Assembly (NCBI RefSeq): GCF_000186865.1 | Contig: NW_008705569.1 | Span: 127,211-191,210 of the forward strand | Source of the DNA: Aureococcus anophagefferens | Taxonomy: Eukaryota > Sar > Pelagophyceae > Pelagomonadales > Pelagomonadaceae | Direction of reading: 5' to 3' | DNA: 64,000 nt | In this document: one piece after another, positions 107 through 63,344 of the stretch | Layout of the letters: the number at the start of each line of letters is the position of its first letter | Numbering within the stretch: position 1 is the stretch's first letter | Position numbers and translations under genes: made by a program | Notes under the pieces: model-generated | What the model saw: only the letters and a program-made list of their open reading frames with translations | The model's database searches: none | Told to the model about the DNA's origin: nothing

Positions 107-2654
107 ATGGTGCGCCTCGAGCTCGTCGAGAAGCGCGCGCACGACCAGATCGCGACGTGCGCGACCTGGGCCCCGACGAACGTGCTCTACTCCTGCTCCG
201 ACGACAAGGACATCCTCAAATGGGGCGTCGACGGCGAATCCGCGGGCAAATGCGCGCAGCTCGACACGTACCCGACGTCCATCGCCTGGATGCCGAACAT
301 CGGCAAGGGCGCGTCGGACGTTTTCGCCCTGTCCTGCGCCGACGGCACGCTGCGCCTCATGACCGGCGGCGGCCGCGAGGAGAAGAAGGTCGCCGCGCAC
401 CACGGCGCCGCGCTGCGCGTCGTCTGGAACTTCGAGGGCAGCGCGCTCTACAGCGCGGGCGAGGACGGCGAGATCAAGGTCTGGAGCAAGTCGGGCAATC
501 TAAGATCGACCCTCGTCAAGAAGGACCACCCCATCTACAGCTTCGCGACGGGCCCCGGCGGCGACCAGGTCGCGTTCGTGTGCGAGCGCAAGATCCACGT
601 CGAGCCCGTGGGCGAGCGCAAGAACTCGACGAGCTGGGTCGCCCACGACCAGGTCGTGCTGGCCCTCGACTGGAACCACGTCACGGGTTTGCTGGTGTCC
701 GGCGCGGAGGACTGCAAGTACAAGGTCTGGGACCACTTTGGCCGCCAGCTCTACCAGTCGCAGCCCTTCGCGCACGTCATCACGGCCGTCGCCTGGAGCC
801 CCAACGGCGCCTACTTCGCCGTGGGCGCCTACAACATGCTGCGCCTCTGCGACAAGACGGGCTGGAGCTGCTGCCGCGAGCGGCCCAACTCGGGCTCCAT
901 CCTGTGTGGAAATCAACCAGTGAGCTGGGACGTCGGGGCCAAACTTCAGAATTCTCTAGCTCGGTCAAATCGAAGTCGATTCGGCTGATTTTTGGACGAA
1001 TCGATTGCTCTCAGCGAGTTCTCGAAGCACGGCGGAAGTGCTCGTGTCAAAGCATTCGAATACGCGCACATTGAAGTCGGGTTGAAGATTTGATTTCCAC
1101 GCAGGCTCCGTCATGGACCTCGCGTGGACGTCCGACGGCACGCAGCTCGTCGGCGCGGGCGGCAACGGGTCCGTCGTCTTCGGCAACCTCGTGGAGCGCA
1201 AGCAGGAGTGGAACAACTACGAGGCGACGCTCGTGGGCCAGCGCCAGATCCAGGTCCAGGACGTGCTCAACGAGACGTACGAGTCGCTCGACTTCAACCG
1301 CGACCGCGTCGTCGAGATGGCGCTGGGCTACGGCTACCTCGTCGTGTCGACGACGACGCAGTGCTTCGTCTACAGCGTGTCGAACTTCAACACGCCCTAC
1401 ATCTTCGACTCGCCCGAGACCGTGAGCCTCATCGAGCTCGCGGAGAAGTTCTTCCTCGTGCTCACGCCCAGCGCGATCACGGTCTACTCCTACGACGGCC
1501 GCAAGGTGAGCCAGCCCCGCTTCCACGGCCTGCGCACGGAGTCGCTCTCCGCGAGCTCGCTGTCGCTCGCGGCGGACTGCGTCGCCGTCATCGACCCGAG
1601 CGACCGGAAGCAGGTCCGCTGCTGCGACGTGTTGACGGGCAAGCCCATGGGCGACCCCATCGCCCACAAGGCCGAGGTCGTCTACGTGGCCCTGAACCAG
1701 ACGCCCGTCACCTCGGGCTCCGTCGAGCGCCAGCTCATCGTCATCGACCGCAACGCGGAGCTCTTCTTGTATCTGGTGTCCACGGGCAAGAGCTACAAGC
1801 TCCACACGCAGGTCGACACGGCGGCCTGGAACGCGACGTCGGAGTCGCTCTGCGCCATCGCCGACGGCCGGCTGTTGGTGTGGTGCTACCCGGCCATCGC
1901 GTTCACGGACCGCGACCTGCTGCCGAGGACGCTGACGACGAAGGACGGCGCGGAGTTCGGCAAGCTGTCGACGATCGTGTCCTTCAACGCGTCGCGCATC
2001 ACCGTGCGCCGCGCCGACGGCGCCGTCGTCTCCGCGGCCGTCGCGCCCTACGCGGCGCTGCTCTACACGTTCGGCGCGGCCGCGCGCTGGGACGAGTCGA
2101 TGCGGCTCTGCCGCTTCGTCGAGGACGAGGGCTGCTGGTGCATGCTCGCGGCCATGGCCATCAACGCGCGCAATTTGGACGTCGCGGAGATCGCGCTCGC
2201 GGCCGTCGAGGAGGTCGACAAGCTCCAGTACGTGCTCTACATGAAGAAGATCCCCTGCCCGGAGGCGCAGTCCGCGGAGCTCGCGCTCTACAAGCGGCGG
2301 CCCGACGACGCGGAGCGCATCCTCCTCCAGGCGACGCCGCCGCTGCTCTACCGCGCGATCAAGATGAACATCCGCCTCTTCCGCTGGGACCGCGCGCTCG
2401 AGATCGCCGTCAAGCACCGGTCCCACGTCGACACGGTGCTCGCCTACCGCGCGAAGCACCTCGAGGCCTTCAAGAAGACGGAGACCGACGAGCGCTTCAA
2501 GCAGCTCGCGTCGTCCGTCCAGTGGAGCTGGGACGAGGTCAAGGCGAAGAAGGACCTCGAGAAGCGCGAGGAGGCCGCGCGCCACGGCAAGTCCTACGAG
2601 CCGTCCTCGTCGTCGTCCGCGCCCCGCGACGAGGGCAAGGACGACCACAAGTGA
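107..2654 (+). CDS. IFT80: Intraflagellar transport protein IFT80
   Basis: Subunit of the IFT-B complex, which carries cargo along the ciliary axoneme. The 778-aa product (human about 777) follows the family throughout: N-terminal WD40 repeats with YSCSDD near residue 25, GEDGEIKVWSKSGNLRSTL near 120 and AEDCKYKVWD near 205, then a second propeller and a helical C-terminus (ALEIAVKHRSHVDTVLAYR). Two exons, 107-893 and 1105-2654. The 211-bp intron is a family A introner plus its target duplication with a GC donor, and splicing at 894/1104 gives NSGSVMDLAW, the same length as the family's NTGSIFNIAW. The ATG lies in a good context (gcgaccATGG). With DNAAF6 it implies that the organism has, or recently had, a cilium. 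Identity is very secure. Confidence 0.95.
902..1104 (+). mobile_element. Introner family A, copy A1 (in IFT80)
   Basis: A 203-bp non-autonomous element with terminal inverted repeats, CTGTGTGGAAATCAA at the left and a copy ending ...GATTTCCACGCAG at the right. It is flanked by an 8-bp duplication, gctccatc (894-901) and gctccgtc (1105-1112). The intron is 894-1104: the GC of the upstream duplication is the donor and the terminal CAG of the element is the acceptor. It shares length, ends and core (TTCGGCTGATTTTTGGACGA) with the elements at 11351 and 45516. It has no coding capacity, so any transposase acts in trans. Confidence 0.93.
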
Positions 2655-2748
2655 GCCGCCGCCTCGATAGCCCAGTCGACGCGCGCGATCCACGTTCCCG
2701 CGCGCGCCCGTAGTAACCCGCCACTCCCTTTTCCGTAGGTAGCCCTCC

Positions 2749-3234
2749 TTACGGCGGCAGCCAGAGCCGCGCGGTTCCCGCGACGGCGGCGGCGCCGTCG
2801 TCCAAAACAACGCTCGTATCACACTCGACAAAGTCGCCGCGGCGCCGCGCGGACGTGACCTTGGTGACGACGATGGTCGCCGTGACCAATTCGGCCACGG
2901 GCACGGGCCGGAGGAAGTCGAGCGTCTGCGCTCGGTAGACGCTCCCCGGCCACTCGCCGGCGAAGAGCGCGGGGAAGAGCGACGCCAGGAGCACGCCGTG
3001 GACGATGGGCGCTGCGAAGTGGTCGCTCGGTTCCCGGTGGATCGCGTTGTCGTCGCCCGTGAGCCGCGCGAAGGCCGCGACGTCGTCGGCGTCGAAGCGG
3101 CGCGAGGTCGTGAGCGCGGCGCCGACCGTCGGTCGCTTTGCGGTCGTCGAGAGCTGGTGCGATCGATGCGGTACTCGCTGGAGGCAGCGACGCGCGACGC
3201 GCGCTGCGGTCAGAGAGCTTGGAGCGGATGCCAT
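2749..3234 (-). CDS. MaoC-like hotdog dehydratase, probably mitochondrial
   Basis: 161-aa protein with an Arg/Ser-rich N-terminus (residues 1-35) that resembles a mitochondrial presequence, followed by one hotdog domain. The hydratase-2 motif is visible as FARLTGDDNAIHRE near residue 60, with the catalytic Asp and His, and is followed by a small helix IVHGVLLASLFPALF. This family dehydrates (R)-3-hydroxyacyl-CoA or 3-hydroxyacyl-ACP, and in mitochondria it serves type II fatty acid synthesis (HTD2-like). Single exon. It converges on IFT80 with a 94-bp gap and is divergent from the sulfatase, about 65 bp from ATG to ATG. The substrate is not determined by the sequence. Confidence 0.8.
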   Translation of the reverse strand: MASAPSSLTAARVARRCLQRVPHRSHQLSTTAKRPTVGAALTTSRRFDADDVAAFARLTGDDNAIHREPSDHFAAPIVHGVLLASLFPALFAGEWPGSVYRAQTLDFLRPVPVAELVTATIVVTKVTSARRRGDFVECDTSVVLDDGAAAVAGTARLWLPP

Positions 3235-4878: not shown

Positions 4879-6496
4879 GGACACGCGGGGCCCGCGCATC
4901 TGAACCAGCGGACGACGCTGGACCGGAGGTCCGCGAGGAGCGCCGCGTCCGCGCCGCCGACGGCGTTGCGCAGCTGGTGGGGGTCGTCGTCGAGGAAGAA
5001 GAGCTCCTCGTGGTGCGCGGCGCCGGCGAAGTCCACGCTCCCGTCCGTGCCATTCACGAACTTCGCGTAGAGCAGGTCCCGGCGCCGTACCGCGACGAAG
5101 TTGTTGTCGCTCTGCTCGATGGGCTCGGCCATGGAGCAGTAGGGCCCGATGCCGACGTAGGCGTACTCGACGAAGACCTCGTCGCGCCAGGGCACCGTCG
5201 CGTTGCGCAGCCAGGGCGCGAAGCTCCGGCCGTCGACGTCGTCGCCGGCGTCGACGCCCGCGAGGTCGAGGAACGTCGGCGCGAGGTCGACGTTCGTCAC
5301 GAACGGCGCGTCCACGACGGCGCCCGGCCGGACGCCCGGCCCGCGCGCGACGAGGTGGACGCGCGTGTCGAAGTCGTAGACGTGGCGCTTGTCCCAGTTC
5401 AGGTTCAATTCGCCCAGCGAGTAGCCGTGGTCCGACGTGTAGAACACGAACGTGTCCTCGAGCGCGTCGCCGAGCGCGTCGAAGATGCCGGCCACGAGAT
5501 CGTCGACGGACATGAGCGTGCGCCAGCGGTCCTTGAAGTCGTCGTCGATGCAACTGGCCACGTCGTCCGTGATCGCGCCCATGGCCGCGACCGTCGGGTG
5601 GTGCAGCCGCCGCGCGGCCTTGGAGAGGTTGAACGACGGCGGCCGCGGCGCGCCCGCCGGCCAGGCGTCGTCCCAGGCGTCGGCGTACCAGGCCGCCGGC
5701 TGGAAGGGGTCGTGCGCCGCCTTGGGCGCGACGTAGGCCAGGAACGGCGCGGCGCCCGCCTTCACTGATTCGATCCACGCCGCGGAATAGTTGCCCACGA
5801 CGCTCGTCGTGTAGGCGTCCGCCGGCGCGTCGTAGGTGCCGTCGTCGAGACCGTCGACATTTTTCACGGCGAAGGACGGACCGAAGTAGTGCCCGCCGCC
5901 GTTCGCGAGGTAGGCGTCGAAGGCTTCGGGGATCGGCGCGCCGGAGCACTCGTCGCCGCAGTCGCCGGGGCAGAAGTTTAAATACTTGCCGAACATGCCT
6001 ACGAGGTGCGTCGGTGACGCCTTTTCGTTTTCCCGGTCAAAATCTGGAAAATCGTGACGGCAGCAGGACGCTGGAACATGCCCGTGGCGTAGCCGGCGCG
6101 CTTGAGCTTGGCCGCGAAGCTCGCGTCGTGGACCTTGTCCTCCTCGACGTGCATGCAACACGCGCCGCCGGTGACGGGGTCGAAGCCGTCGTAGGGCGTC
6201 GTGCAGACGCCCGGCGTCTTCAGGTTGTGGAGGTATCGGCCCGTTAAAGTTTCCGCGCGGCTCGGGCAGCAGACGGGCGTGTGGACGAAGCTGCTCGTGA
6301 AGAGGGCGCCGCCGTCGACCAAGAGCTTCTGGGTTTGGGGCATGGGCGTCGCGCCGCTTGTCGTCGGGAAGCTGCCGCCGAGCACTTGGTCTTGATCATC
6401 GGTAAGGATGAAGACGATGTTGTTCGGTGTGTTCGGTGCGTTCGGTGCGCATTCCGCTGTCGCGAGCAGTAGGAATACCCAAGATGAGGCTGCCAT
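4875..6496 (-). CDS. Secreted sulfatase, N-acetylglucosamine-6-sulfatase/SULF-like
   Basis: A second sulfatase, of a different subfamily from its neighbour. It has a signal peptide (SSWVFLLLATAECAP), then NNIVFILTDDQD (metal site) and TPVCCPSRAETLTGRYLHN with Cys76 as the formylglycine residue, resembling glucosamine-6-sulfatase and extracellular SULF enzymes. Further motifs include YTSDHGYSLGE and KRHVYDFDTRVHL. Two exons on the minus strand, 6496-6082 and 5998-4875 (512 aa), are separated by an 83-bp family C introner intron, and exact removal gives ATGMFGKYLNF. The gene is convergent with the first sulfatase and the two share four bases (ctaa) that hold both stop codons. Two adjacent sulfatases suggest use of sulfated polysaccharide as a sulfur or carbon source. 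Confidence 0.88.
5999..6073 (-). mobile_element. Introner family C, copy C1 (in sulfatase)
   Basis: A 75-bp element beginning CAGCGTCCTG and ending CGTCACCGACGCACCTCGTAG (split for reading: CGTCACCGACGC then ACCTCGTAG) in the sense of the gene. It is flanked by a perfect 8-bp duplication, gcatgttc in gene sense (plus-strand gaacatgc at 5991-5998 and 6074-6081). The intron is 5999-6081, with a GC donor from the duplication and a TAG acceptor from the element. Confidence 0.9.
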
Positions 6497-9902: not shown

Positions 9903-12357
9903 TCAGAACAGGTCCGGGTCCTCGAGGAGGTCCGCCGCGGCGCGCGTGAGCGGCGGCGCGACCGCGTCCTCGTCGCCGAGGTCCATGGCCGGCAGGTTCC
10001 GCTCGCGGTCGTCGTGGTTCTCGAAGGCGAAGGCGACGGCGAGGGCCTCGACGAGGAGGTGGTTCAGCGTCGCGAGGGCGCCGTCGTCCAGCAGCCCCGC
10101 GTCCCGGCGGTCCGCGTTCCTTTGCGTCGCGTCGAGCAGCACAAGGCAGTCGTTCGAGCCGAAGGGCGGCTTCGCCGGCGGGCCCGACGCCACGTAGCGC
10201 AGCGGGTCCGGCTGCGACGCCGCGGCCCGCCGGAGCACGTGGAGCACGAAGGCGAGGAGCGCCGTGAGCTCCTCGGCGACGGCGGACCCGGGCTCGCCGC
10301 GCGCCTCGCCGCGCTCGCCGAGCGCGACGACGAGCGCGCGCGGCAGCTCGCTCTCGCGGAAGCCGGCGCCGAAGGCGTCGCCCGCGACGGCCGCCAGCGC
10401 CACGCGCGCCAGCCGCAGCAGCTTGGACGCCTCGGGGCCGTGGCGCGCCGCGACGACGAGCGCGCCGAGGCCCGCGCGCTCGCGGTCCTCCGCGTCGTGC
10501 GCGCGGCCCAGAGCGTCGGCGACGGCCGCCGCGCGGTTCGCCGCGGCCTCGAAGGCCCCGGGCGCGCCGCCCGCGAGCGCCGCGCCCAAGGCCGCCACGA
10601 GGCTCGCCGCCTCGGCGCCGCAGAGCGTCTCCAACCGCCCGTCGACGGCGAACGGCCGCGCGCTCGGCTTCGGCGGCGCGCCCAGGTCCCGCTCCGCGGC
10701 GCTCTCGCGCTCGCCCCGCGCCCGTAAAGCATCATCATCCAGCAGCTCACCCCGCAGGTACCAGGCCGCGGCGCCCTGGACGTCGCCCGCGGCGGAGACG
10801 GCGTCGCCGCGCGAGTCGCAGACGCGGCGCGCGTCCGCGGCCTGGCCCTCGGCCGCCGCGAGCCGCGCGAGCTCCCAGGCCCCGGCGTCGTCGGCCGGGT
10901 CCGCCCGGGCCAGCAGGGCCCGGTAGCCCGCGCGGTCGTCGCCGAGCAGGAGCAGCCGCGCGCCGAGGCGCCAGTCCGACGCCGTCGCGCGCCCGGCGAC
11001 CGCGCCGAGCAGGCCCGCCCCGACGTCCGGCAGGGGCGCCTGGCCCGGCGGCGGGCCCGGGAAGAGGTCGCCGCGGCGCTTCGCGAGCACGGCGATCGCC
11101 GCGCAGCACGCGAGCGCCGCGGGCGACTCGCCCGCGAGCGCGTGGACGACCTTGATCGCCGACGCCGCGTCCCCGTCCTTGAAGACGGCGTTGAAGAGCT
11201 GGCGCCGCGCCTCGGAGAAGTCCTCGGCCGCCGCGCGGGACGACGCCTCGACGACGACGTCCGCGATGCGGGCGCCGTAGGGCGCGTTGCTCGCGGGCGC
11301 GTCGACGAAGAAGAGGAGACGCGCGAGCAGCCGGTCCTCCCAGCCCAGACCTGTGCCGAAACCAAATCTTCAACCCGACTTCAATGTGAGCGTATTCGAA
11401 TGTTTGGACACAAGCTCTTCGGCTGGGCTTCGAGAACTCGACGAGAGCGATCGATCCGTCCAAAAATCAGCCGAATCGACTTCGATTTGACCGAGATAGA
11501 GAGTTCTGAAGTTTGGTGGGGACCCCCCAAACCAGTGGTTGGTTTCGGCACAGGCCCAAGCCGCCGAGCGCCGCGGCCGCCGCGTCCACGTCCCCGTCCA
11601 GCAGCGCGAAGAGCGCCCGCGCCGGCGGCACGGCGCTCAGCAGCGGCGCGTTGCCCGCCTCGGCCGCGCGCCGCGCGCGCGCCGCGTCGCGCTTCCAGGG
11701 GCCGAGCCGCGCCGCGTACGTCTCGAGCGCGTCGTCGTCGGCCGCGTCCGGCGGGTCCGGGAAGGTCTCCAGCAGGCGGCCCAGGGGCGCCCAGAGCTGG
11801 CTCAGGGACCGCGACGCCATCGTCGAGTGCGTCTTGAGCACGGCCCACGCGTCCGCGCACCGGCCCCGGCACGCCAAACGGTACGCGAGCTGCCAGAACG
11901 GCGTCGCGGCCTCGGCGCCCGCGTCGCCGTCGGCCGTCCAGGCCTCGGGCGCCGTCTCGAGGCGCGCCAGCAGCGGCAGCAGCGCGTCGAACTCCGCCTC
12001 CTCGACGGCCCAGTCGACGCACCGCCGCCGGAGCCACCCGGCGAGCCGCGACCCGCGGCGCCGCGCGACGTCGAAGAACCCGATCTCGCAGAGCTCCCAG
12101 ATGGCCGCGATGGCCTCGAGCGCCTCGACGACGCCGTCGGGCTCCTCGCCGCCCTCGGCCAAAGCGTCCCGCGCGTCCAAAGTCTCCTCCAGGGCCCGCC
12201 GGCCGGCGCAGGAGGCCTCGTTGAGGTCGCCCTCTCGCTCGAGTATCGAAACGATTGACGCGATGAGCGCCGCGTCCTCGCTCGTGAGCGGGGCGTCGTC
12301 GCACTCCATCGCTGAGGCCGACGCCGCGAGGGCCGTCGACGAGCTCAGAGTCGCCAT
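9903..12357 (-). CDS. NUP85: NUP85-like nucleoporin (Y-complex)
   Basis: An alpha-helical protein of 747 aa in two exons, 12357-11562 and 11350-9903. The region ATPFWQLAYRLACRGRCADA followed by WAVLKTHSTM matches the crown region of the NUP85/ACE1 fold, and WEDRLLARLLFFVDAP resembles the W-x-x-x-L-x-A-x-L-L-Y segment after it. NUP85 is a structural member of the Nup84/Nup107 (Y) complex of the nuclear pore. The intron is a 211-bp family A introner with a GC donor; exact removal joins ALGG to LGWEDRL. The first in-frame ATG is 12357, and MECDD at 12309 is an alternative start. The C-terminus is low-complexity Ala-rich, so the subunit name is moderately sure. Confidence 0.62.
11351..11553 (-). 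mobile_element. Introner family A, copy A2 (in NUP85-like gene)
   Basis: A 203-bp element with ends CTGTGCCGAAACCAA and its inverted copy, so both ends carry the same compensating differences from A1 and A3 (GTGCC for GTGTGG). The flanking 8-bp duplication is gcccagac (11343-11350) and gcccaagc (11554-11561). The intron in the minus-strand gene is 11561-11351, with a GC donor in the duplication and a CAG acceptor in the element. Its orientation relative to the gene is the same as A1. Confidence 0.92.
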
Positions 12358-13787: not shown

Positions 13788-15427
13788 TTACCGGACGGGC
13801 CCCGCCGCGAGGCGCGGCAGGCGCCGCCGCACCCAGGACGGCAGGCTCCCGCGGTACGCCAGCGCCATCACAAACAGGAACGCCGCGTTGTGGACGACGG
13901 CGTAGCAGCCCAGGACCCAGAAGCCCGGCAGGACCGCGCCCGTCTCCTCCATGCAGCCCGCGAAGCGCGTGAGCCGCTCGACGGCGGCGCAGAGCCGCTC
14001 CGCGTTCAAATCGATGATCCAGGCCGAGATGACCGTGATGTTCTGCGCGAAGTTGGCCAGCACGACCCAGAGCACCTGGGCAGGACAAGAGTGCGAAATT
14101 CCCAACTTCAAAGGCTCCTCTCTCGGCCGGTTTCCACTCGTTTCGGCTGATTTTTGGACGAGCGATCATCTCTCGGAACGGTCTCGAAGCGTGGATGCTT
14201 TTTCCAGAACGGGAGCGCGCGGAACACTCACGTTGAAGCGACGTTGAATCACCCTTGTCCTGCCCTGCAGAGCACGTCCGCGGACGCGAGCGCGTGGAGG
14301 TGCAGCGTCGCGGAGAAGAGGCGGCGTCGGACGACGGGCGGCAGCGGCGCGAAGAAGACCAGAGCGAGCGCGAGGTCCGCGGCGACGTCGAGCAGCACGC
14401 AGACCGTCAAAGTCCACGCCGTCCAGAGCCGCTTCGAGCGGAGGCCCCGCGTCGCGCCGTCGATCTTCCTCGCGACGTCGACGACGCCGACGCGGCTCCG
14501 CGTGCGGTCCATGAACTTGGACGCGAGGCCGCGCGTCGTGAACCGGAGCGCGGGCCGCGTCAGCGCGAGCCAGACGAGCGCGACGTTCGCGACGATCAAA
14601 GCGCGGCCGGCGGCGAGCGCGGCGCGCTGCGCCCGGGTCGACGCGGTACACGTGTTCGAGATCGACGCGGTCCCGTCGAACGCGAGGGCCCGCGGCGTCT
14701 CGAAGGCCGACGCCATGCGCCGCGCGTCGTCGCCGTCAAAATCGTTGCCGAGGAGCGGCGCCTCGCCGGGCGGCTTCGCCGGCGCCTCGGCGGCGTGCGC
14801 GCGCGCGAGCGCCGCGGCGAGCGCGTAGCTCCCGAGGTTCGCGACCTCGAAGCCGAGCACGCCGAACCCGAAGACGACCTCGACCTCGACGTCGAGCCCC
14901 GTCGCCGGGTTTGGCGCGTCGATGTAGAGCGCGACGCAGAGCAGGATCGCCGCGAATGTGAGCATGTGCTGCGCGCGGACGGTCTGCACGAGGGCGCCGC
15001 AGAGCGCGCCGCGCGCCGCCGCGTCCAGGGGGCGGAACCAGACGTAGAGGTAGGCCAGCAGCTGCGCGTAGGGCAGCCCGCCCGTGCAGGCGCCCGTGAC
15101 GAGGGCCGTCGCGCGCGCGCCGGCGTTCCAGAAGTTGCGCAGCGTCGACCACGTGCTGAGCTGGAAGATGTCCGCCGTCAGGGCCTCGTAGTCGCCGACG
15201 GCCACGGCGAGGCGCACCCAGGTGCCCGTCGAGCCCTGGCCCCAGCAGCAGAGGCCGCCGACGGCCGCGACGGCGACGAGGAAGGCCGCCGTCTCGCGCC
15301 GCGACCGCGACGCGGCGAGGGACGTCGGCGGGGCGTTCAGGACCGCAAGTCCTTCGGCGAGATCCGCGGCGTCGAGGGCGCGGGCGTCGGCGACGCCGAG
15401 CGAGCCCGCGGACGACGTGCGGATCAT
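13788..15427 (-). CDS. PqiA-like polytopic membrane protein
   Basis: 479-aa protein in two exons, 15427-14276 and 14075-13788, with about seven hydrophobic segments. STWSTLRNFWNAGARATALV, then GLPYAQLLAYLYVWF, resembles the paraquat-inducible protein A (PqiA) domain, in which a helix is followed by a Pro and a K-L/W-rich turn. Bacterial PqiA belongs to lipid-trafficking systems of the envelope, and the role of eukaryotic homologues is unclear. The intron is a 200-bp family B introner whose donor GT is the first two bases of the duplicated target; splicing restores SADVLWVVLANF. The ATG at 15427 (MIRTSSAGS) is preferred over an upstream non-ATG reading. Confidence 0.6.
14076..14267 (-). mobile_element. 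Introner family B, copy B1 (in PqiA-like gene)
   Basis: A 192-bp element with inverted ends CTGGGCAGGACAAG and CTTGTCCTGCCCTG, flanked by a perfect 8-bp duplication, cagagcac (14068-14075 and 14268-14275). The intron in the gene is 14275-14076. Read in gene sense, the duplication is gtgctctg and its GT is the donor; the element ends CCCAG and provides the acceptor. The core TTCGGCTGATTTTTGGACGA is shared with family A. Confidence 0.92.
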
Positions 15428-27695: not shown

Positions 27696-30600
27696 TCACG
27701 CCACGAGCAGCTTCTGGACCTGGGCCATGGGCTCCGTGCCGAGGAGCTTCTTCCGGAGCCGCGTCGCGCGGCGCGCCATCGAGACCACGACGTCGAGGCC
27801 GCCGCAGGCCTTGGCGTGCATGCGCAGCGTCTTCTCCGCGCGGTCCAGCGCGCGCGCGTCGAAGGCGACGCAGCGCGCGGCGACCTCGGCCGCGGCCGCG
27901 CGCGCGAGGCGCCGCGCGCCGCCGTCGCCTACCAAGCAAAATCTCGTTGTTTTCCCACCCCAAATCTCTCGAAAATCGTCACGGCCACAGGACGCTGGCC
28001 GTCGCCGCCGTCGTCGTCGCTGTCGTACGTCGACTCGCTGTCGCCGGACGCGTCGTCGTCGTCGTCGACGTCCGCGCCGATCTGGCCGACGAGCGTCGGG
28101 CGCACGGCCGCCGCCGCGTGGACGTCCGGCCCCTTGAAGAGCGCGCGCGGCGACGCCGGCGACGCCTTGGGCGCCTTCGGCGTGGCCGGCGGCGTCGCGA
28201 CGTAGGCCGCGCGGCGGCCCGACTTCGCCGCCGCGCGCTCCGCGCGCCGCTCCAGGACCTCGAAGACCGCGTCCAGCTTGAGGTCCAGCGTCACGTCCGG
28301 CGTCGGGTCCATGAAGTCCGCGCAGCGGCACAAGGCTTCCAAAAATTCGAGGTACGACAGCGCCTTGTAGTCCTTGCGCTGCAAACGATCGAAGACCGTG
28401 AGCTGGCACCAGCTGAAGGCGAGGCGGCTCTCGAGGTTCGTCACGCCGCGGAAGTAGCCCGCCGCGGCGCCGGGCGTCGCCGCGTCCTTCAGGTCCTCGG
28501 CGTCGCCGAAGGACCGCGCGAGCACGGACGCGCGCGGGATCTCCGTCGTCGAGACGCGCCGCCGCGCGGACGCGCCCGCGTCCTTGGTCCAGTTCCGGCA
28601 GGTCTCGTCGACGAACATCTCCCAGCGCGGAAAGTCGATCTCCCTGGCGCGCGGCGCTCTGGCGGACTCGAAGGACGCCCGGAGCAGCGGCTCCTTCGCC
28701 TTGAGCTTCAGATCCACGGCCTCCGTGTAGAGGCGGGCGTCGCGCCACAAAAAGTTCTGGTTCAGCATGTCGTAAGGCAGCTCGCGCGCCGCCGGCAGCA
28801 CAAAATCCTCGAGCAACTTCCGCACGGCGACCGCCGGGTCCTCGGGCTCGAAGTCGTCCGGCTTGCCGAACGTCCACGTGAAGCGGCGCATGGCGACGCG
28901 GAAGAGCGCCTCGAGGAACTCGTGGCGCGCCATGCTCTTGTCCTTGACGTTGTGCACGTTCACGGCCACAAAAACCGTGTCCGCGTCGTTGGCCGTGTTG
29001 TAGTCGCCGACGACGCCGCAGTCGCGCGCGAAGCGGCGCCAGTTCTCCCAGCCCATCTCCAGCGGGTCGTCGCTGCCCAGCCCCAACGCCGAGTAGTAGC
29101 GGTGCAGGCTCCGGATGTCGCCGTAGAATTCGCCGAAGACGGCGTAGACGCGTTTCAGCACGGCCCGCGACTCGAAGCCGCGGAGCTTGAGCACGAGCGC
29201 GGCGATCTCCGTCAGCGACACGTCGCTCGTCGCGACGTGCTTCAAAAAGTGGGGCGTGTCGTGGAAGGACTTGGAGTCGGCCTCGCGGGGCCGCTTGCGC
29301 CAGATGGACCGCCACAGGCTCCAGGGCGGCCGCCGCTGCGCCTCCGCGGCCGCGGGCTCGGGCGACTGCGGCCGCCGCTCGAGGTACGTCGCGATGTACG
29401 CGTCGCCGACGACGTCGCGGCGCCGCGCCGGGTGCTCGACGGCGACGGCGCAGGGCGCGCCGCGGTCCCGGAGCGTCGCCGCCGCCAGGTCCTTGACGGC
29501 CTGCTCGCCGCCGCCCGCGACGCAGTTCTCGAGCCCCAACACCAACAGCGTCCGGTTCGTCGCGAGCGCGCCGACGATGCTCGAGGTGACGGGCGTGCCG
29601 AGCTGGTTGAAGCCGAAGCGGCATTCCCGCACGTTCTCCGGCGCGTGGGCGACGGCGTCCGCGAGCGCGGCGCCGGACTCGGGCCCCAGCGCGTTCTCCG
29701 AGACGTCGAGCGACGCGAGGCTGCAGCTCTCGAGGATGAGCGTCGCGAGCGCCGGCGTCGCGGCGTCGCGGATGCCGCAGCGCCGCGCGTACAGCGTCAC
29801 GAGGCGCCCCCGCAGCGCGCCGCGGAAGACGGCCTCCGCGCCTCTATTTCGGAGGTCGTTCTCCGACACGTCCAAATAGCACACCGACGACGCGTCGAGC
29901 GCGAGCCCCAGCGCCTCGGCGCCGGCGACGCCGATGCCGCAGCGCGCGCAGTCTAAGCGTTCGAGGTGGCCGTAGCGCACGCGCTCCGCCAGGCTCGCGG
30001 CCCCCGCGTCGCCGATGCGGTTCCGCGCGACGACGAGCGTCCGGAGGCCCGGCACGTCGCCGCGGCCGATGAGCGACGCGAGCGCCTCGGCGCCCGCCCG
30101 CCCCAGGCCGCACCGCTCCAGCTCCAGCCCGCCGAGCACGCAGCCCCGCGCCTCGTCCAAAAGCAGCTCGTCCGCGAGGGCCCGCGCGCCCGCGTCCCCC
30201 ACGCGGTGGTTCCCGCCCAGGTCCAGCGTCTCCGGGAAGGGGCTCGACGAGTCCACGGTCGCCGTGTGCGCCGCGGCCAGCGCGCGCGCGTCCAGCGCCG
30301 TCAGCGAGTCGTCGTTGACCGCCAGGCGCCTCGCGGGGAGGCGGCGCGCGACGCCGCGCCGCGCGGGCGCGCCGAGCTTCGCGCACGCGCGCGCGTACTG
30401 CAGGTCCGCCGTCGCGTCGCCGTCGACGACGTGGGCGACCTCGTCGAGGCTCACGGACCCCGCGTGGTGCGAGAAGCGCTGCTCCAGCCCCGCCCGCGCG
30501 CCGTCGTCGACGCGGACGCCGAACGCGTCCAAAAATACCAGAAACTGCTCAAAGTCCACGCGGCCGTCGCCGTCGACGTCGCCGAGGTCGCCCGACGCCT

Positions 30601-33298: not shown

Positions 33299-34877
33299 AT
33301 GAGGACGTGGGCCGCGGGCCGGACGTCGATCTTGGGCCGGGACGCGAAGTCGCAGGACTTGGCGGACCGGAGCGACGAGAGGACGGCCTCGCCGACCATG
33401 GACGCCGTGTTGACGAAGGTCGACATGGCGCCGCGGACGAAGGTGTTGGAGAAGTGCGTGCCCCGGGCCTCGTGGGCCGGCTCCGGCGCGCCCGAGTCGA
33501 ACTGCGTGTAGACGCCGCCCGGGTTGTCGAACGCGGCCGGGTCGCCGTTCGCGCGCAGGATCCGCGAGCACGTGCCGCTGTTGAGGCGGAGCGCGAAGAT
33601 GTGCTCCGCCAGGGAGAGCGTCGCCCAGTCGAGGAAGGGCGCCGTCTGCTCGAGCAACTCCGCGGCGGTGGCGTGCGAGTCGCAGTCCGCGGCCTTGTGG
33701 CCCGCGCAGGCCGCGCCCGTGTGGGGCCGCACGCCGAAGTTGAAGAACTCGACCTCGACGTCGTCGCCCAGCGCCAAGACGCCCGGGAGCCGCTCGTGGA
33801 GGTACGCGTTGTCCGACGCGACGAAGACGCGGCGGATGCCCGACTCGTCGATCTGCGCGGCGAGCTTCTTCCGGATGCAGTGCCAGAAGGGGTCGTTGCC
33901 TAAAATCAGCCGCTCGATGGCGTGGGCCGACACGTTCGGGTTCAGCTCGTGGATCATCGCGTTGTCGACCGTGCGGATGTGCAACGCGGCCGAGTAGAGG
34001 TGCGTGGGCCTAGCAAGCATGACGGTGACGATTTCTCTCATTTCCCACCCCAAATCTCTCGAAAATCGTCGCGGCCGCGGGACGCCGGCGCGGGCTTCGG
34101 CGCGTCGAGCGCGCGCTGGAGCCGCGCGACGGAGCCGTTGAAGCGCCGGCCGGCGACGTCCAAGAGCGGCTGGGCGACGCCGGGGAGCGCGAGGCGCAGC
34201 GCCTGGCCGACGGCGCAGTTGTCGCCCGTCGCGAAGCCGTAGCAGCCCAGGAGCCGGCCGACGCAGGACGCCCAGGGGTTCTTGCTCGACGCGCCGTAGC
34301 CGCCCATGCGCGTCGACGACGCCATGCGCAGAAGCGTCGTGTTGGACCGCGCGTGGCAGCTCAGGCCCCGCTTCTCGTTGAAGAACGCTTCGTCGCACGG
34401 CTTGTGCGGCTTGTAGTTGGGCATCTTCTTGATCTCCTCCTTGCTGCGCGTCGACGCGGGGTAGCCGCAGTCGAAGACCGCGCAGAGGTAGGCGACGAGC
34501 GACGTTTGGGGCGCGTTCTCGAAGGACGTGAGCTCGAGCCGCCGACTGCTGATCAGCGAGTAGAGCACGGCGTTCGCCAAAGCCTCGAGTTGGTTGCCCA
34601 GGCCGCTGCCGGCGAGCGGGTGCCAGACGACGACGCGCCCGGGCGTCACGGGGCTCAGCGGCGCCCCGCGCTCCGCCGCGCAGCGCGTGATGTTCGCCTC
34701 GGCGCGCCGCGAAAAGGCCGCCATCGTCTCGAGGTAGGCGTCGCGCGGCACGTGCTGCCCGCTCCGCGGGTCGTAGACGCTCGTCGTCGGCGCGGTGGTC
34801 GTCGGCGCTATGCGGAGCGCGATGAGGACGGCCAGGGTGATGGACATCGGTCGGCCGGGGCAGCCCATCGAGCCCAT
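33295..34877 (-). CDS. Fucosyltransferase-like glycosyltransferase
   Basis: 498-aa type II membrane protein in two exons, 34877-34096 and 34009-33295. A signal anchor (MSITLAVLIALRIAP) is followed by WHPLAGSGLGNQLEALANAV, the G-x-G-N-Q motif near the start of GT-B fucosyltransferases, and by YSAALHIRTVDNAM, which resembles the H-x-R-x-x-D donor motif of alpha-1,6/alpha-1,2 and O-fucosyltransferases. Further on is VFVASDNAYLHERLPGVLAL. It probably acts in the Golgi on glycans. The intron is an 86-bp family C introner, GC-AG, and splicing restores APKPTHLYSAALHIR. Its stop TAA and the TAG of the plus-strand neighbour overlap in ttag. The linkage made cannot be read from sequence. Confidence 0.65.
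34010..34087 (-). mobile_element. Introner family C, copy C3 (in fucosyltransferase-like gene)
   Basis: A 78-bp element, CGGCGTCCCGCGGCCGCGAC at the start and GTCATGCTTGCTAG at the end in gene sense. The duplication is gcccgcgc/gcccacgc (plus-strand 34088-34095 and 34002-34009), 7 of 8 identical. The intron is 34095-34010. Confidence 0.88.
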
Positions 34878-44823: not shown

Positions 44824-45007
44824 TACTAGAAGTTGAAGTAGGTATTTAGTTAATCTGAGGGCTCGGCCATCCATGGTAGGAGCGCGTAGCAGCCTAAAGT
44901 ATTATAAACTATACGTGGTGGGAGCCGCCATTAGCTAGGCACGGACGGGTCGTGTCCGTGTCGTGAGCGCGGAGCAACCGCCGCCCGATGCGGGCCCTGC
45001 CGAACCA

Positions 45008-45258: not shown

Positions 45259-45342
45259 GGCGGTCAACCCCCTCGGGCAGACCCGGTCATCATGCGGCCA
45301 CCGCGGCGCGACCCCGACGGAGGCATCCAGTGCTATTACGCC

Positions 45343-46729
45343 CTACGCGACCTTGACCGCGCGCACCATCGCCGTAAGGCAGATCTTCAGCCACTCCCCG
45401 CAGGGAACCATCACCGCGCGCGTGTAGTAGTCCGACTTGCCCGCCATGTTGCGGAAGTCGGCGAAGTGGCAGTTGAGGGGGCCGAAGTCGAGGAACATGT
45501 TCATGGGGTGGTCGCCTGTGTGGAAATCAACCACTGGTTTGGGGGGTCCCCACCAAACTTCAGAACTCTCTATCTCGGTCAAATCGAAGTCGATTCGGCT
45601 GATTTTTGGACGAATCGATTGCTCTCGTCGAGTTCTCGAAGCACGGCAGAAGAGCTCGCGTCGAAACGGTCGCATGCGCGCACATTGAAGTCGGGTTGAA
45701 GATTTGATTTCCACACAGGTGACCACACGCCGCGGAGAAGACGTGGTCGAAGTGGACCTTCTCGACGAGGGCGTCGAGCACGTGCGGCACATCGCGCAGC
45801 CGCGGGAACCGCGCGGAGAGCACGCGCTTGATGCCCTCGGGTCCGAGCTTGTCGCGGAAGATCTTCTTGAGCCCGTCGACGCCGCGGTTGCTCCGCTTTT
45901 TCGACGCGCGGTAGGCCTCCATCACCGCCAGGTGCTCCGGACAGTCCTCGTGGCCGAGGAGGGCACAGCGGGGGTAGTCGTCCGGCAACCCAGGGTCGTG
46001 GTAGCCGATCTTGTCGCGCTCCGCCTGCCCAAAGCCCACGTCGACGCAGAGCTGCTCGAGCAGTCCGTTGAAGTCGCCGTCGATCTTCACCGCCGCGGCC
46101 GCGCCGCGGCCCCGCGCGACGTCCTGCGCGAGCAGGCGCCGCGCGATCAGCTGCACGCGCTTCATCTCGACGACCTCCTCGGTCGTCGCCGAGCCCGCCG
46201 CGGTCGCGTAGTCCGAGACGTACTCGTACTGCGCGTCGCCGAGCTCGAGGTCCCCCATATTCGTGAGGTTGACGACGACGGACTTGGAGGACGTCGTCAA
46301 AAGCCCATCATCATTCCGACAGTACTCCCGCGTCTGCAAGCACGTCTGCCCGTCGGCCCGCGCTACCATGGACTTCTTCGTCGCGAAGGTGCGCCGTGCG
46401 CCCGGCGCGCCGCGCGGCACGTCTCCTTCCCGCGCGCGGCCCGCGGCGGTTTTCAGCCGCTTCGCGATAGGGTTTTCCCACACGTCGGAGTCGTCCGGCG
46501 CGTACGAGAGCCAATTTATGCGCGCACTGTCCAGCGCCTTCTCGAACACGTCCATCCCGCTGTGTCCGCGCCGAAAATCGCAGTTCGCCGTGAAGTGAGG
46601 CCGATAATAGTCGACCGTGTCGTCGCCCGAGCCCGCGCTGTGGTCGTATGTGACCATCCCTCCATATGTGAGGGCCTCGAATGCAGCGCGGTCGCGCTTG
46701 CCCCCGCGGCCGTTCCGCGCCAACGACAT
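45343..46729 (-). CDS. Protein of unknown function interrupted by an introner
   Basis: 391-aa protein in two exons, 46729-45727 and 45515-45343. Recognisable only as a soluble mixed alpha/beta protein. Notable stretches are ALTYGGMVTYDHSAGSGDDT near the N-terminus, a Lys/Arg-rich middle, FGQAERDKIGYHDPGLPDDY, GVDGLKKIFRDKLGPEGIKR, and a Cys- and His-containing end (MFLDFGPLNCHFADFRNMAG, YTRAVMVPCGEWLKICLTAM). The 211-bp intron is introner A3 with a GT donor from the duplication; exact removal gives FSAACDHPMNMF. Codon bias supports a real gene. It may belong to a lineage-specific family. Confidence 0.65.
45516..45718 (+). mobile_element. Introner family A, copy A3 (reverse orientation in its gene)
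   Basis: A 203-bp element with perfect 15-bp terminal inverted repeats, CTGTGTGGAAATCAA and TTGATTTCCACACAG. The duplication is gtggtcgc (45508-45515) and gtgaccac (45719-45726), 5 of 8 identical with three transitions. The intron in the minus-strand gene is 45726-45516. The element is inverted relative to its gene compared with A1 and A2, yet the other end again supplies CAG. Confidence 0.9.
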
Positions 46730-53701: not shown

Positions 53702-55410
53702 TCAGGCCCAGGTGTTGGACCGCGCGAGGCGCTGCTTCGAGAGCCGCGCGACGTCCGCGCGGTACTCCTGGACGTGCTGCTTCTCGACGGCGAGGGCCGT
53801 GGCCATCTTCTGGACCTCGGACTGGAGCTGGGGCAGCATGAGCGCCATCTGGGCCGTCGGGCGCCAGACGGGGTTCGGGTGGAGGAGCGCGGCGACGCAG
53901 TCGCGGAGGTCGGCGGGCGTCGTCGCGGGGAAGTCCGGGCTGCCGTCGCGGAGCGCGTGCCAGGCCGGGCCGTTGGGCGCCAACGGCGCCCGCTTCAGGA
54001 GCTCGAAGGCCGTCGCGCCGAGGGAGAAGACATCGCATTTGGTCAAATCGCGGTCGACCTTCTCCGACGCCGGCGTGAAGTCGTCGTCGTCGAGGAGCTC
54101 GCGCGACATGTAGCGCGAGTCGCCCTCGACGACGTCGCCGCCGCCGGACTGCTTCTGGGTGGCGAGGCCGAAGTCGCCGAGCTTGAAGGTCGCCTCGCCC
54201 TTGAGGAAGACGTTGCCGGGCTTGATGTCGAGGTGCACGAGGCCGTTGCGGTGCAGCAGCTCGAGCGCGAGGAACATCTGGCGCAGGAAGGCCCAGAGGT
54301 TCTCCGGCGTCGGGTGGAAGCGCTGGCGGTGCACGCGGCTCTCGAGGCTCGCGTCGCAGAGCTCCGTCTGGATGAACAGCCGCTCGTCCTCGATCCACGC
54401 CTGGGCAGCAAAAGGGTGCGAAATTCCCAACTTCAAAGGCTCCTATCTCGGTCGTTTTCCGCTCGTTTCGGCTGATTTTTGGACGAGCGATCATCTCTCG
54501 GAGCGCTCTCGACGCGTGGATGCTTTTTCCGGAACGCGCGCGCGCGGAACACTCATGTTGAAGCGACGTTGAATCACCCTTGTCCTGCCCCGATCCACGC
54601 CTGGTAGTAGCGGACGACGTGCTTGATGCCCTCGTGCGCGTCGTCGCGCGCGGACAGGGCCGCCAGCGCGAAGACCTCCTTGAGCGTGCGGTCGCGGTGG
54701 AGCTGGCCCTTGAACTGGTGCTTCGTGGCCTTGACCGCGTAGTGGCAGCCGTCGATGCGGCTCTTGACCTTGTGCACGGTGCCGAACGAGCCGCCGCCGA
54801 CGTACTTGACGACCTCGAAGTCGTGGCGGAAGCGGCTCTCGGTTTCCGCGGGCTCCGCGGCCTGGCCGAAGCCGCCGCCGAAGAGGCCCCCGCGCCGCGC
54901 GGGCGCCGCGGGCGCGCGCGCCTTGAACGCGGACGCGGCGCCGCCGCCGTCGCACGACGACTGGCTCAGGTCCACGCTGTCGCAGCGGTTCAGGTCCTTG
55001 GGCGCGAAGGGGTTCACGTTCGCCGCCGGCGGCGCGTCGACCATGGCCGCGCCGCCGCCGCCGCCGCCGAAGAGGCCCCGCGCGGGGCCGGCGCCCGACG
55101 GCATGCGCAGCGAGAACCCGCAGTCGCCCTCGTCGTCGCTCACGCCGTCCCCGACGTCCCCGTCGCTGTCGCAGATGTCCGTCGTCGTCGACGCGCAGCT
55201 CGCCGGCGTCCCCTTGGTCCGCGGCGTCCCGAGCTTGGGCTGCTTCCGCGGCCGCGAATTCGGCGGCGACGCCATCATCGCGTCGCCGTCGCTCATCGAC
55301 ATCTGCCCGAACCCGAACTTCGCCTGGGGGTAGTAGTCCTGCATGGCCACCGACGGGGGGCTCGGCGGCTCCTCGTTGGCGGGCGAGCCGGGGACCGGGC
55401 TGAGGAACAT
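53702..55410 (-). CDS. WEE1: WEE1-like protein kinase
   Basis: 502-aa kinase that in other eukaryotes phosphorylates CDK1 on Tyr15 to delay mitosis. Disordered N-terminus of about 190 residues with Ser/Thr-Pro sites. Kinase domain: YVGGGSFGTVHKVKSRIDGC (glycine loop), YAVKATK (Lys), VRYYQAWIEDERLFIQTELC, LHRNGLVHLDIKPGNVFLKG (catalytic loop), FKLGDFGLATQ and VVEGDSRYMSRELLDDDD. The EGDSRYM activation-segment motif is the WEE1/MYT1 mark. A C-terminal coiled region follows the domain. Two exons, 55410-54601 and 54400-53702, are split by a 200-bp family B introner with a GC donor, and exact removal restores QAWIEDERL. No membrane anchor was seen, which favours WEE1 over MYT1. Confidence 0.88.
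54401..54592 (-). mobile_element. Introner family B, copy B2 (in WEE1)
   Basis: A 192-bp element, exactly the length of B1. Plus-strand ends are CTGGGCAGCAAAAGGGTG and CACCCTTGTCCTGCCCCG, flanked by a perfect 8-bp duplication atccacgc (54393-54400 and 54593-54600). The intron is 54600-54401. In gene sense the duplication reads gcgtggat, so the donor is GC; the element ends CCCAG. Confidence 0.92.
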
Positions 55411-57978: not shown

Positions 57979-58009
<31 letters not shown>

Positions 58010-60152: not shown

Positions 60153-61547
60153 ATGAAGCTCCCAGGCGTCGTCGCCGCGGCAGCCCACACCTTGGAGGTG
60201 GGCCAGGGCAAGGCCGCGTCGTCCAGCGACGCGCCGCCGCCACCGGTCGGCCTGCGGCGCCTGTGGCTCCTCGTCCTCGTGCAGCTGTTCCCCTTCGCTT
60301 TGGGCGTCGTCGCCCTGCCCGCTTTGCTGCTCGACGCGTGCGGCGGCTCGGAGCACGAGGCGGCCACGTACGTGACGCTCGGCAACAGCCTCTTCTTCGG
60401 TTTGCAGTGGGCCTGCGCGGGCGCCTGGGGCGGCTTCAGCGATCGCGCGGGCCGGAGGCCGCTGCTGCTCGTGGGCGTCGCGTCGGACGCGTTGGGCGCC
60501 GCGCTCCTCGCGACGGTGCCGCTCGGCGCGCTGCCGAGGGTCTACGTCAGCGTCCTGCATCCGTGACAATTTCGAGAGATTTTGACCGCAAAAACGATGA
60601 AAAATCGTTACCGACGCGTGTGGTAGGTCTACGTGGCCCTCGCCGCGTGCAGGGGGATTTTCTCCCAGTCGCGCATCGCGCTCTTCGCGGCCATCGCCGA
60701 CGTGTCCGAGAGCTCGGCGCTCGCGAGGAACTACGGCGCCTTCGGCGTCGCCTTCGGGCTGTGCTTCGTCCTGGGGCCCGGCGTCGGCGCCGTGCTCTAC
60801 ACGGCGTCGCGGCGGCTCCCGTTCGTCGTGAGCTTCGCGCTGACGCTCGCGGCGTGGGCCTTAGCGTTCGCGCTGCCGGAGACGCTCGCGGGCGGCGCGA
60901 AGCGAAAAGCGGCGAGTTGGAACCCCGTCGCGCCCGTGCGCGCGGTCTGCGCGGCGCCCCTCGTCGCCGCGACGCTGCCGTCCTTCGTGCTCGCGAGCGT
61001 CGCGACGTCGACGTACGCGCTCTCCGTCTTCCTGCTCACGAAGCGCTTCGGCGCGTCGACGACGGTCGTGGGCGTCTTCCTGTCCTGCGTCGGCCTGGCG
61101 ATCTGCGTCTGCCAGGGCGTCGTGCTGCCGCTCATGCTGAAGCGGCTCGACGACCGGCGGAGCTGCCTCGTGGGCTTCGTCGCGGCCGGGACCTACTTCC
61201 TCGCCTTCGGCCTCGCGCCGACCCTGGGCTTCGCCTTCGCGTCCGTCGCGTTGGTGTTTTTCTCGGGCCTCTTCGACCCCTGCATGCGGGCCATCATGGC
61301 CTCGGTCCTCGAGGGCGACCTCGGCGCGCTCTCGGGGGCGCTCGCGAGCCTCAGCTCCGCGAGTCACATCTCGTCCTTCGCGTTCGGCGCCTTGTTCGTC
61401 GCGGCCGGGTCCGGCGCGCCCTTCGTCGTCGCGTCGGGCCTGTGCTTCGTCGCCGGCGCGCTCGCGTGGCGGGCCTTCCGGCGGCACCCGGCCGTCGCCG
61501 CCGCGGCCGTCGAGCTCCCGCGACGAAAGGAGGCTAACCTGGTTTAA
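60153..61547 (+). CDS. Major facilitator superfamily transporter
   Basis: 435-aa membrane transporter with about 11-12 helices in two exons, 60153-60539 and 60627-61547. The MFS motif between helices 2 and 3 is visible as GGFSDRAGRRPLLLVG, and NYGAFGVAFGLCFVLGPGVG marks helix 5 as in TetA/DHA1 efflux pumps. A hydrophilic loop after helix 6 (LAGGAKRKAASWN) splits the two halves. Substrate unknown; relatives include drug-efflux and hippocampus-abundant-transcript-like (HIAT/MFSD) proteins. The intron is an 87-bp family C introner with a GT donor, and splicing gives ALPRVYVALAACRG. The 3' end overlaps the hydrolase-like copy on the other strand by 14 bp. Confidence 0.85.
60548..60626 (+). mobile_element. 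Introner family C, copy C4 (in MFS gene)
   Basis: A 79-bp element beginning CAGCGTCCTGCATCCGTGAC and ending CGTTACCGACGCGTGTGGTAG (read as CGTTACCGACGC then GTGTGGTAG), with a perfect 8-bp duplication gtctacgt at 60540-60547 and 60627-60634. The intron is 60540-60626 with a GT donor. Confidence 0.9.
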
Positions 61548-62030: not shown

Positions 62031-62061
62031 TGGGGTGGGGGGGCGAGTCTGCCACGAGCGC

Positions 62062-63344
62062 CTACGGGCACTCGTAGCAGCGCGGCTGGTTCTCGTAGGG
62101 CTTGTTGCGGTGGCAGCCCTTCTTCTTCTCGCGCGCCGTGAGCTTGAGCTTGTAGAACCGGCACTCGCGGTGCGAGATGCGGTTGTGCGTCGTCGAGCCT
62201 ACCAAATGCGTCGGTAACGAGTTTCGTCGTGTTCCCGGTCGAACTCTCTCGGAAATCACCACGGCCGCAGGACGCTGCGTCGACCGCAGCGGCACGGCTT
62301 CAGCTTCGCGGCCTCGTGGCCGCGCTTGCACGCCGCCGAGATGGCGCGCGCCTTGGCCTTGGCGGGGAGGTTCGCGAACTTGACCTGGCCCTTCGCGCAC
62401 TTCGCCGCGTGCTTGACCTTCGCCGGCCCCGCCTTCATGCCCTTGCCCTTCGTGCTCTTGCAGCCGCCGGCCTTCGCTAACTTCTGGCCCCACTGCTCGC
62501 GCGTCTTGTGCTGCATGGACTCCTTCGCGTGTTCGGCGAGGTCGTCGCCCGTGAGCTTGTGCCGCGCCGTGCGCTCCGCGACCCAGTTGGTCGCCGTCTC
62601 GCCGGGCGGCGTCAGGTGCATGCCGTAGAGCGGATTCGTCGTGTCCGTGATCTGCGACACGTACTTCAACTGGTCCTCGTCGAGCGGGAACACCTTCCGC
62701 GGCGACATCTGGTGGCAGACCTCGGGCACCGACTCCTTGCCCATCTCGATGACCGTGGCCTCGTCGCAGAGGGTCATGGGCCCGCGGAGGGCCGGGCCGC
62801 AGATGAGCCAGGAGCGGACGTCGTGGCCGCTGCACCAGACGCGCGACGTCACTCGCGGCGACTGCGCGGACCCGCAGTAGAGCAGGTCCCCGTACTTGCC
62901 CCAGTCGACGCAGCGGTGGCTGAAGTAGACCTCGATCAGCTCGTAGCGGTCGGGCGCGACGCACCGCGCCGTGACGAGCATCTGGAGGTACGCGTCCACG
63001 TACGGCGCCACGTCCACGTCGTCCTCGTGCGTGAAGAGGCGCGAGCCCTTGGGGACCGCGTGGTGCTGCGTGAGCTCGAGGAAGTTGCGGTAAAGCGTCG
63101 TGAGGCCGAGACTCTCGATGAGCTTGTTCCGCGCGGCCTTGCGGCTGAGCTCCTTCGTCTTCGCCCACCAGCCGGTGCCGTGCGGGCCGCCCGCGCGCCG
63201 GCCGTTGCCTTTCTGAATGTACGGCTTCCGCCGCGCCGCCTTGACGAGGTGGTCGCGGTCGACGATTTCGAAGATGGTGTCGAGCTTGTGCATCCCGGTG
63301 GGTAATTTCGTCACGGAACCGCGGGGCCAGTCGTCGACGGACAT
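62062..63344 (-). CDS. Cys-rich protein with a C-x-C-G-S-x-x-H zinc-knuckle-like tail
   Basis: 398-aa protein in two exons, 63344-62285 and 62198-62062. Start MSVDDWPRGS at 63344, or MRRERST at 63365. The main part is mixed alpha/beta (DTIFEIVDRDHLVKAARRKP, VDWGKYGDLLYCGSAQSP, FPLDEDQLKYVSQITDTTNP). Lys-rich repeats (CKSTKGKGMKAGPAKVKHAA) precede a tail, CRCGSTTHNRISHRECRFYK then CHRNKPYENQPRCYECP, that could bind one or two zinc ions and resembles knuckles seen in some transposon and helicase proteins. The intron is an 86-bp family C introner. The gene lies between the two copies of the hydrolase-like sequence. Function unknown. Confidence 0.65.
62199..62277 (-). mobile_element. Introner family C, copy C5 (in Cys-rich gene)
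   Basis: A 79-bp element beginning CAGCGTCCTGCGGCCGTGGT and ending CGTTACCGACGCATTTGGTAG (CGTTACCGACGC then ATTTGGTAG) in gene sense. The downstream duplication is gctcgacg; the upstream copy reads gtcgacg, one base shorter, so a one-base deletion turned a GC donor into GT. The intron is 62284-62199, and the frame requires this reading. Confidence 0.85.

Follow-up and report, generated by a model that had tools for sequence, protein, structure and literature searches.

In Aureococcus anophagefferens and Micromonas pusilla, reportedly the two introner species of Huff, Zilberman and Roy (2016), introners are said to carry one of their splice sites and to co-opt the other. Eleven elements of this kind lie in a 64,000-nucleotide stretch of A. 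anophagefferens DNA (contig NW_008705569.1, positions 127,211 to 191,210; hereafter the window), part of a 49.05-Mb assembly of 86 contigs from which the genome-wide pattern counts given below were taken. The phenomenon is already known in this very species (Huff 2016; Gozashti 2022) and is not new here; a preliminary description of the window had noted that introners behaving as DNA transposons are known from Aureococcus and Micromonas.

As far as the available excerpts of the papers cited go, the introners of A. anophagefferens and M. pusilla have direct and inverted repeats (PMC7789003), use co-opted splice sites and insert in both orientations (PMC10228655), and a characteristic length of about 210 bp is given (PMC9481584). 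In a Symbiodinium introner, the 3' splice site is located on the element and the 5' splice site comes from the duplication (PMC9860276). The same source lists an Aureococcus sp. introner of 77 bp with an 8-bp duplication, which it reads as adding 12 nt.

The introners of the window and their relatives elsewhere in the genome are very probably short, non-autonomous DNA transposons resembling miniature inverted-repeat transposable elements (MITEs), in which the element gives the acceptor AG, the first GC or GT of the duplicated target gives the donor, and removal restores the coding sequence. An element with inverted or sub-terminal inverted repeats would insert, presumably by means of a hAT-like transposase, and duplicate 8 bp of its target. 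Its last bases (CAG in families A and B, TAG in family C) would form a ready-made 3' splice site, and the first dinucleotide of the upstream target copy, GC or GT, would become the 5' splice site. Splicing would take out the element together with one copy of the duplication and give the old coding sequence exactly back.

Insertion sites, reading frame and donor dinucleotide

All eleven elements of the preliminary description are found where it had placed them (Table 1). Six of their 8-bp duplications are perfect, as had been claimed, and the remainder match at 5, 6, 7, 7 and 7 of 8 positions. The one-base deletion noticed in one of them concerns the element at 62199, whose duplication matches at 7 of 8 positions ungapped and at 7 of 7 on the assumption that a base is missing from the intron-side copy. 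The frame had been said to be restored in all eleven; under a codon-usage model it is continuous across the element plus 8 bp in ten, and 62199 requires the element plus 7, in agreement with its one-base deletion. If the intron were retained, translation would meet a stop codon after 16-156 bp of the element, and this holds for all eleven. That old introns were later hit by a transposon is scarcely conceivable, because the duplication brackets a whole intron consisting only of element and duplication in 11/11 cases, and the frame is continuous without the insertion.

For a wider view, 100 copies with their flanks were sampled (37 A, 34 B and 29 C; window copy 60548 was missed by the C pattern). 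The gene strand was called independently, from codon usage alone, and a copy was kept if its coding score exceeded 0.1 with a margin of at least 0.2 and its duplication matched at 6 or more of 8 positions. Most loci were retrieved by exact end patterns, which mask end mutations, and the coding calls are statistical. A coding call was obtained for 89 of the 100 copies; of 4000 sites drawn at random from the base loci, 57.7% received one. Eighty-three copies, eight of them from the window, were kept; the 17 dropped comprise 11 without a clear coding call and six with a duplication below 6/8. Among those kept, the 8-bp duplication is perfect in 61, has one mismatch in 17 and two mismatches in five. 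With 20 weak copies and one short copy set aside, the frame could be tested in 79 and is continuous in 78 of these, the sole failure being window copy 62199. There are many similar copies, each a whole intron in a different gene, with a target-site duplication and terminal inverted repeats, the latter being sub-terminal only in family C.

On the gene strand, the duplication begins with GC in 46 kept copies, with GT in 36 and with GA in one, a family A copy (locus L003). A G followed by a pyrimidine (GY) therefore occurs in 82/83 copies, against a background of 19.5% at random coding sites (GC 16.1%, GT 3.4%; p about 4e-57), and in family C alone in 25/25 (about 2e-18). Family A, of which 15 kept copies are sense and 16 antisense, has the GY on the 5' side of the gene in 30/31 cases. 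The far end of its duplication reads RC (a purine followed by C) in 7/31 copies, against a background of 22%, and shows no mirror-image preference. Since the GY of family A follows the gene strand and not the element, we infer that the rule mainly reflects which insertions survive once splicing is required, those without a usable GY presumably being lost from genes. Every kept copy of B (27) and of C (25) is oriented so as to present its AG; the B form with CAG at its left end stands in one orientation (five kept copies) and the form with CTG at its left end in the other (22). An RNA-based spread by reverse splicing, as proposed for fungal introners, is highly improbable given the 8-bp duplications and terminal repeats of the copies read and the insertion of family A in both orientations.

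Beyond the GY, almost no donor consensus is recognisable, the match to CAG^GTAAGT being 3.1 of 9 as compared with 2.7 at random GY sites. GC accounts for 56% of the 82 GY copies, as against 82% of the GY sites on offer, which amounts to a preference for GT of about 3.7-fold, although GC is still abundant.

Two junctions hold the frame, one at the duplication boundary and the other at a GY located 4 bp inside the element (+12 nt), so the frame alone does not settle the donor. This also limits the introner interpretation of the preliminary description, which is otherwise borne out by the 8-bp duplications, the appearance of non-autonomous DNA transposons and the exact removal together with one duplication copy. 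If both splice sites were inside the element (CTGT^GT or CAGC^GT), each insertion would add four residues while keeping the frame equally well. Element bases 5-6 are indeed GT or GC in 83/83 kept copies (many fixed by the fetch pattern), the sulfatase gene model P0170 is built in this way, and the legend of Fig. 2F in Gozashti 2022, within the excerpt available, gives 4 + 8 bp (PMC9860276). Such an internal donor is nevertheless improbable, as it leaves the GY start of the duplication in 82/83 copies (C 25/25) unexplained, and the four residues are absent from homologues and from two environmental proteins.

Three junctions were compared with homologous proteins, those in IFT80, WEE1 and the sulfatase, and at none of them do the homologues show additional residues. 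The spliced IFT80 protein of 778 aa can be aligned with IFT80 from other species with no gap where the junction lies; it matches A. anophagefferens P0001 at 88% over 93% of its length, most discrepancies stemming from the gene models, and a JGI (Joint Genome Institute) protein at 99% over 76%. The products of the WEE1 and sulfatase genes likewise match A. anophagefferens records, and the spliced WEE1 product (502 aa) differs by one residue from the environmental protein P0121. Together, the GY rule and these protein comparisons favour the duplication copy as the putative donor.

Three introners with GC donors were compared in this respect, and at each of them the deposited A. anophagefferens models deviate from homologous proteins. 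IFT80 model P0001 runs into the element and omits conserved residues, WEE1 models P0122 and P0124 lose VVRYYQ and P0123 and P0126 lose more, and sulfatase model P0170 gains MFQR, which corresponds to exactly 8 + 4 nt, the same arithmetic as in the published Aureococcus introner. We infer GT-only gene prediction as the cause. These cases suggest that gene models avoiding GC donors would drop or add conserved residues.

Several observations weigh against the proposed origin of the splice sites. The element ends in AG in 83/83 kept copies, a count that is partly built in, as the boundary finder for family C required AG and, in many A and B copies, one of the two ends was set by the pattern used to fetch them. 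The clean junction is matched exactly by P0002, P0121, P0168 and P0169, which may be transcripts or insertion-free alleles; the contigs of the P0121 cluster reach 14,414 bases and do not decide between the two. No autonomous element with A, B or C ends was found in hAT, KDZ, MULE and end-pair searches. A. anophagefferens introners are said to have canonical splicing motifs in the available part of PMC7789003, a statement that sits uneasily with 46/83 GC donors here unless GC was counted as canonical. GY is still found in 6/11 copies without a clear coding call, and in family C the far end of the duplication reads RC in 11/25 copies (p 0.013; B 9/27, A 7/31), which hints at some target preference. 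Both of these counts would be expected if the GY start reflected a preference of the transposase for its target and not a filter by splicing, and the asymmetric families B and C alone cannot separate the two. As a full explanation, target preference is unlikely, because family A, with acceptor-type ends on both sides and insertions in both orientations, lacks the RC excess and yet has a GY that follows the gene strand.

Families, a possible one-base step and GC donors

Family A measures 203 bp with inverted ends of 15 bp (CTGTGTGGAAATCAA), resulting in introns of 211 bp. Family B has 192 bp and terminal inverted repeats of about 14 bp, and family C, mostly 80 bp, has sub-terminal inverted repeats only, the outer 15 bp or so of its two ends being different. 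The genome-wide search with element ends proposed in the preliminary description yielded more than 2,400 matching ends (817 for A, 805 and 448 for the CAG-left and CTG-left forms of B, and 360 for C). These matches are not due to chance, as the reversed-control patterns gave none for A, for either B form or for C. A variant A end type (CTGTGCCGAAACCAA, present in window copy 11351) adds 99 left-end matches, with one for its reversed control. Two unusual arrangements were seen: a family C copy of 134 bp with an internal tandem duplication and a still perfect 8-bp target duplication (L036, from 418), and a stretch of about 570 bp that holds a pair of oppositely oriented family A copies (G000:C2:1598848-1599417).

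The three families named in the preliminary description are all present, although sequence likeness places them in only two lineages. Profiles of A and B cross-hit with E 1e-11 to 1e-13, and their consensus interiors are 63% alike over 137 aligned positions, compared with only about 30% over the first 25; for C, the profile search found no relation to A or B. Family B comprises two forms that mirror each other, the acceptor being at one end in the first and at the other end in the second. The interiors of these forms, B1 and B2, are 97% alike, and they also differ at sub-terminal bases beyond the second base.

These relations lead to a wider proposal, which may be correct although we lean slightly against it: a one-base change in a transposon end creates an intron, the need for no more than a GY donor in a genome of about 70% GC explains 39.6% GC-AG introns, and the published four-residue Aureococcus introner is an artefact of GT-only gene models. 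If the second base of a hAT-like end changed, turning CAG into CTG, the element read outward would finish in ...CAG and thereby in a 3' splice site. The change would have affected one end or the other of a near-identical element in family B and produced mirror-image, one-direction introners, and in family A both ends, giving a two-way introner. If true, one base in a transposon end could be the minimal step from parasitic DNA to intron.

Pairing of typed B ends on contigs 1 and 2 gave 71 elements, 44 CAG/CTG and 27 CTG/CAG. The CAG/CAG parent form occurs in 0/71, which speaks against the one-base step; CTG/CTG elements also occur in 0/71, a form only partly tested because the CTG-left pattern represents one sub-terminal variant. 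Of the listed left ends, 79/100 and 42/100 were typed, those located as far as about 1.58 Mb on contig 2, as were 98/100 listed right ends, and the exact patterns left 50 left and 27 right ends unpaired. In the 20 B2 loci that were fetched, the CTG end calls for caution, as the fetch pattern fixes it. In family A, the second base is changed on the donor side only in 5/35 copies and on the acceptor side only in 0/35 (p 0.03). Stronger conservation of the acceptor-side base was considered on these grounds and set aside, as the exact left-end pattern fixes that base in many loci. In a fold test of 12 copies per family, the ends pair in 12/12 A, 12/12 B and 8/12 C copies, with median z of -1.9, -1.7 and -0.8; an RNA hairpin that selects the donor is kept only as an idea.

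According to the part available of a 2011 survey of 61 species, exceptional GC-AG fractions occur only in A. anophagefferens (39.6%) and M. pusilla (22.2%), as against 2.7% in Micromonas RCC299; their origin is called an enigma there, and the 5' end of U1 is reported to be normal (PMC3033335). An Rfam search for a variant U1 small nuclear RNA gave no match in the genome nor in any control and is uninformative. If any GY can be co-opted in a GC-rich genome, many GC donors are to be expected, which suggests that the GC-donor introns of A. anophagefferens are a by-product of introner insertion. A link between introners and the GC-AG excess was not found in the literature searched, though Huff 2016 may contain it. 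The data suggest that the unusual GC introns and the faulty deposited models can both be traced to introner copies.

Mobilisation and age

The 8-bp duplication is that of hAT MITEs, and the introners may work like such elements without being members of the group. The hAT domain PF05699 was detected at four places in the genome with 22-24 bits, barely above the cut-off, and A, B and C ends are absent from 6-8 kb around three of the four (one stretch has 392 masked bases). The MULE domain PF10551 gave no match in the genome, compared with matches in 4/14 control genomes, and the KDZ (Zisupton-like) domain PF18758 gave none in the genome and none in the control genomes either. A search for family A ends that adjoin a foreign base gave 12 matches and no carrier. 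Among the typed B ends, two pairs lie 1-9 kb apart; they were rejected as carriers, since every partner end in them has a closer B end to pair with. Separately, a 1217-aa open frame with hAT-type domains was noticed in locus L033 (3054-6705, minus strand), without A, B or C ends nearby; its zf-C17orf113 match is above the cut-off, and those to DUF4371 and Dimer_Tnp_hAT are below theirs.

The mean pairwise identity is 87% in A (30 copies), 95% in an A subtype (two), 88% in B1 (six), 92% in B2 (25) and 82% in C (29). Traces of the IFT80, WEE1 and sulfatase insertions are found in gene models on contigs of other A. anophagefferens assemblies, some of which have residue differences from the window. 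The longest of these contigs range from 232,897 to 552,779 bases, compared with at least 890 kb for the contig of the window. The three insertions probably predate at least some strain splits. The intense recent intron gain of the preliminary description is therefore only partly supported: the families are mostly 82-92% identical, and other assemblies bear traces of each of the three insertions examined.

The window and its place among known systems

Table 1. The eleven introner introns of the window. Positions are those of the window; the intron comprises the element and the donor-side copy of the duplication.
Gene	Intron	Strand	Element	Donor-side copy	Donor	Duplication match (of 8)	Remarks
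IFT80	894..1104	+	A, 902-1104	894-901, GCTCCATC	GC	7	other copy 1105-1112, GCTCCGTC
Sulfatase	5999..6081	-	C, 5999-6073	6074-6081, GCATGTTC (gene strand)	GC	8	other copy 5991-5998; PF00884, E 4e-39
Nup85-like	11351..11561	-	A, 11351-11553	11554-11561	GC	6	variant ends CTGTGCCGAAACCAA on both sides; PF07575, E 4e-8
	14076..14275	-	B (CTG-left), 14076-14267	14268-14275, GTGCTCTG	GT	8	
	27929..28005	-	C, 27929-27997 (69 bp)	27998-28005, GCGACGGC	GC	8	
	31714..31804	+	C, 31722-31804	31714-31721, GTCGAGCG	GT	8	
	34010..34095	-	C, 34010-34087	34088-34095, GCCCGCGC	GC	7	
	45516..45726	-	A, 45516-45718	45719-45726, GTGGTCAC	GT	5	
WEE1-like kinase	54401..54600	-	B (CTG-left), 54401-54592	54593-54600, GCGTGGAT	GC	8	
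MFS transporter	60540..60626	+	C, 60548-60626	60540-60547, GTCTACGT	GT	8	
	62199..62284	-	C, 62199-62277	62278-62284, GTCGACG (7 bases)	GT	7 ungapped	one base lost vs GCTCGACG

A Pfam scan covered eight of the eleven gene products and recognised four, a sulfatase, Nup85, a protein kinase and an MFS transporter; the genes with introners 14076, 31722, 34010 and 45516 had no match, and IFT80 was named by homology instead. Relative to its gene, the 45516 element is inserted in antisense to the other two A copies of the window (902 and 11351). Profile hidden Markov models of the families recovered the eleven elements and one 35-bp fragment (42637-42671, E 4e-4), the remaining matches being weak (E > 0.6) or cross-hits between A and B. 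The fragment resembles the left end of family A and is perhaps a decayed copy. When the window was compared with the sampled loci by BLAST, the eleven elements and three further clusters were obtained; two of these clusters are minisatellites and the third is a coding relative.

Other repeats were also observed in the window. An 11-bp minisatellite forms two arrays (43115-43458 and 44960-45303), with similar sequence in three other sampled loci, a perfect 160-bp tandem duplication occupies 44504-44823, and a direct repeat of 300 bp with 94% identity occurs 2 kb apart at 61551-61850 and 63607-63906.

The origin of introns is a long-standing question, and the A. anophagefferens genome displays the process in many copies. 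The donor-side ends of families B and C start with CAGGG / CAGCG, resembling the end consensus of hAT elements, and the 8-bp duplication is common to the introners, hAT elements and hAT MITEs. Unlike hAT ends, the acceptor-side ends have T and not A at the second base (CTG in A and B, CTA in C), and, unlike in a hAT system, no hAT element with A, B or C ends was found. Compared with the introners of Huff 2016, as far as the excerpts cited above describe them, those of the window share the species, the repeats, the co-opted splice sites and both orientations, and the 211-bp introns of family A agree with the length of about 210 bp; the difference lies in the motifs, called canonical there, whereas the 83 kept copies have a GC majority. 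The Aureococcus sp. introner in the available part of Gozashti 2022 resembles family C by its size and 4 + 8 arithmetic (PMC9860276). It was read as adding 12 nt, whereas for family C the GY rule and the homologues favour a donor in the duplication copy. The Symbiodinium introner from the same source has the same division of splice sites between element and duplication as proposed here for the introners of A. anophagefferens.

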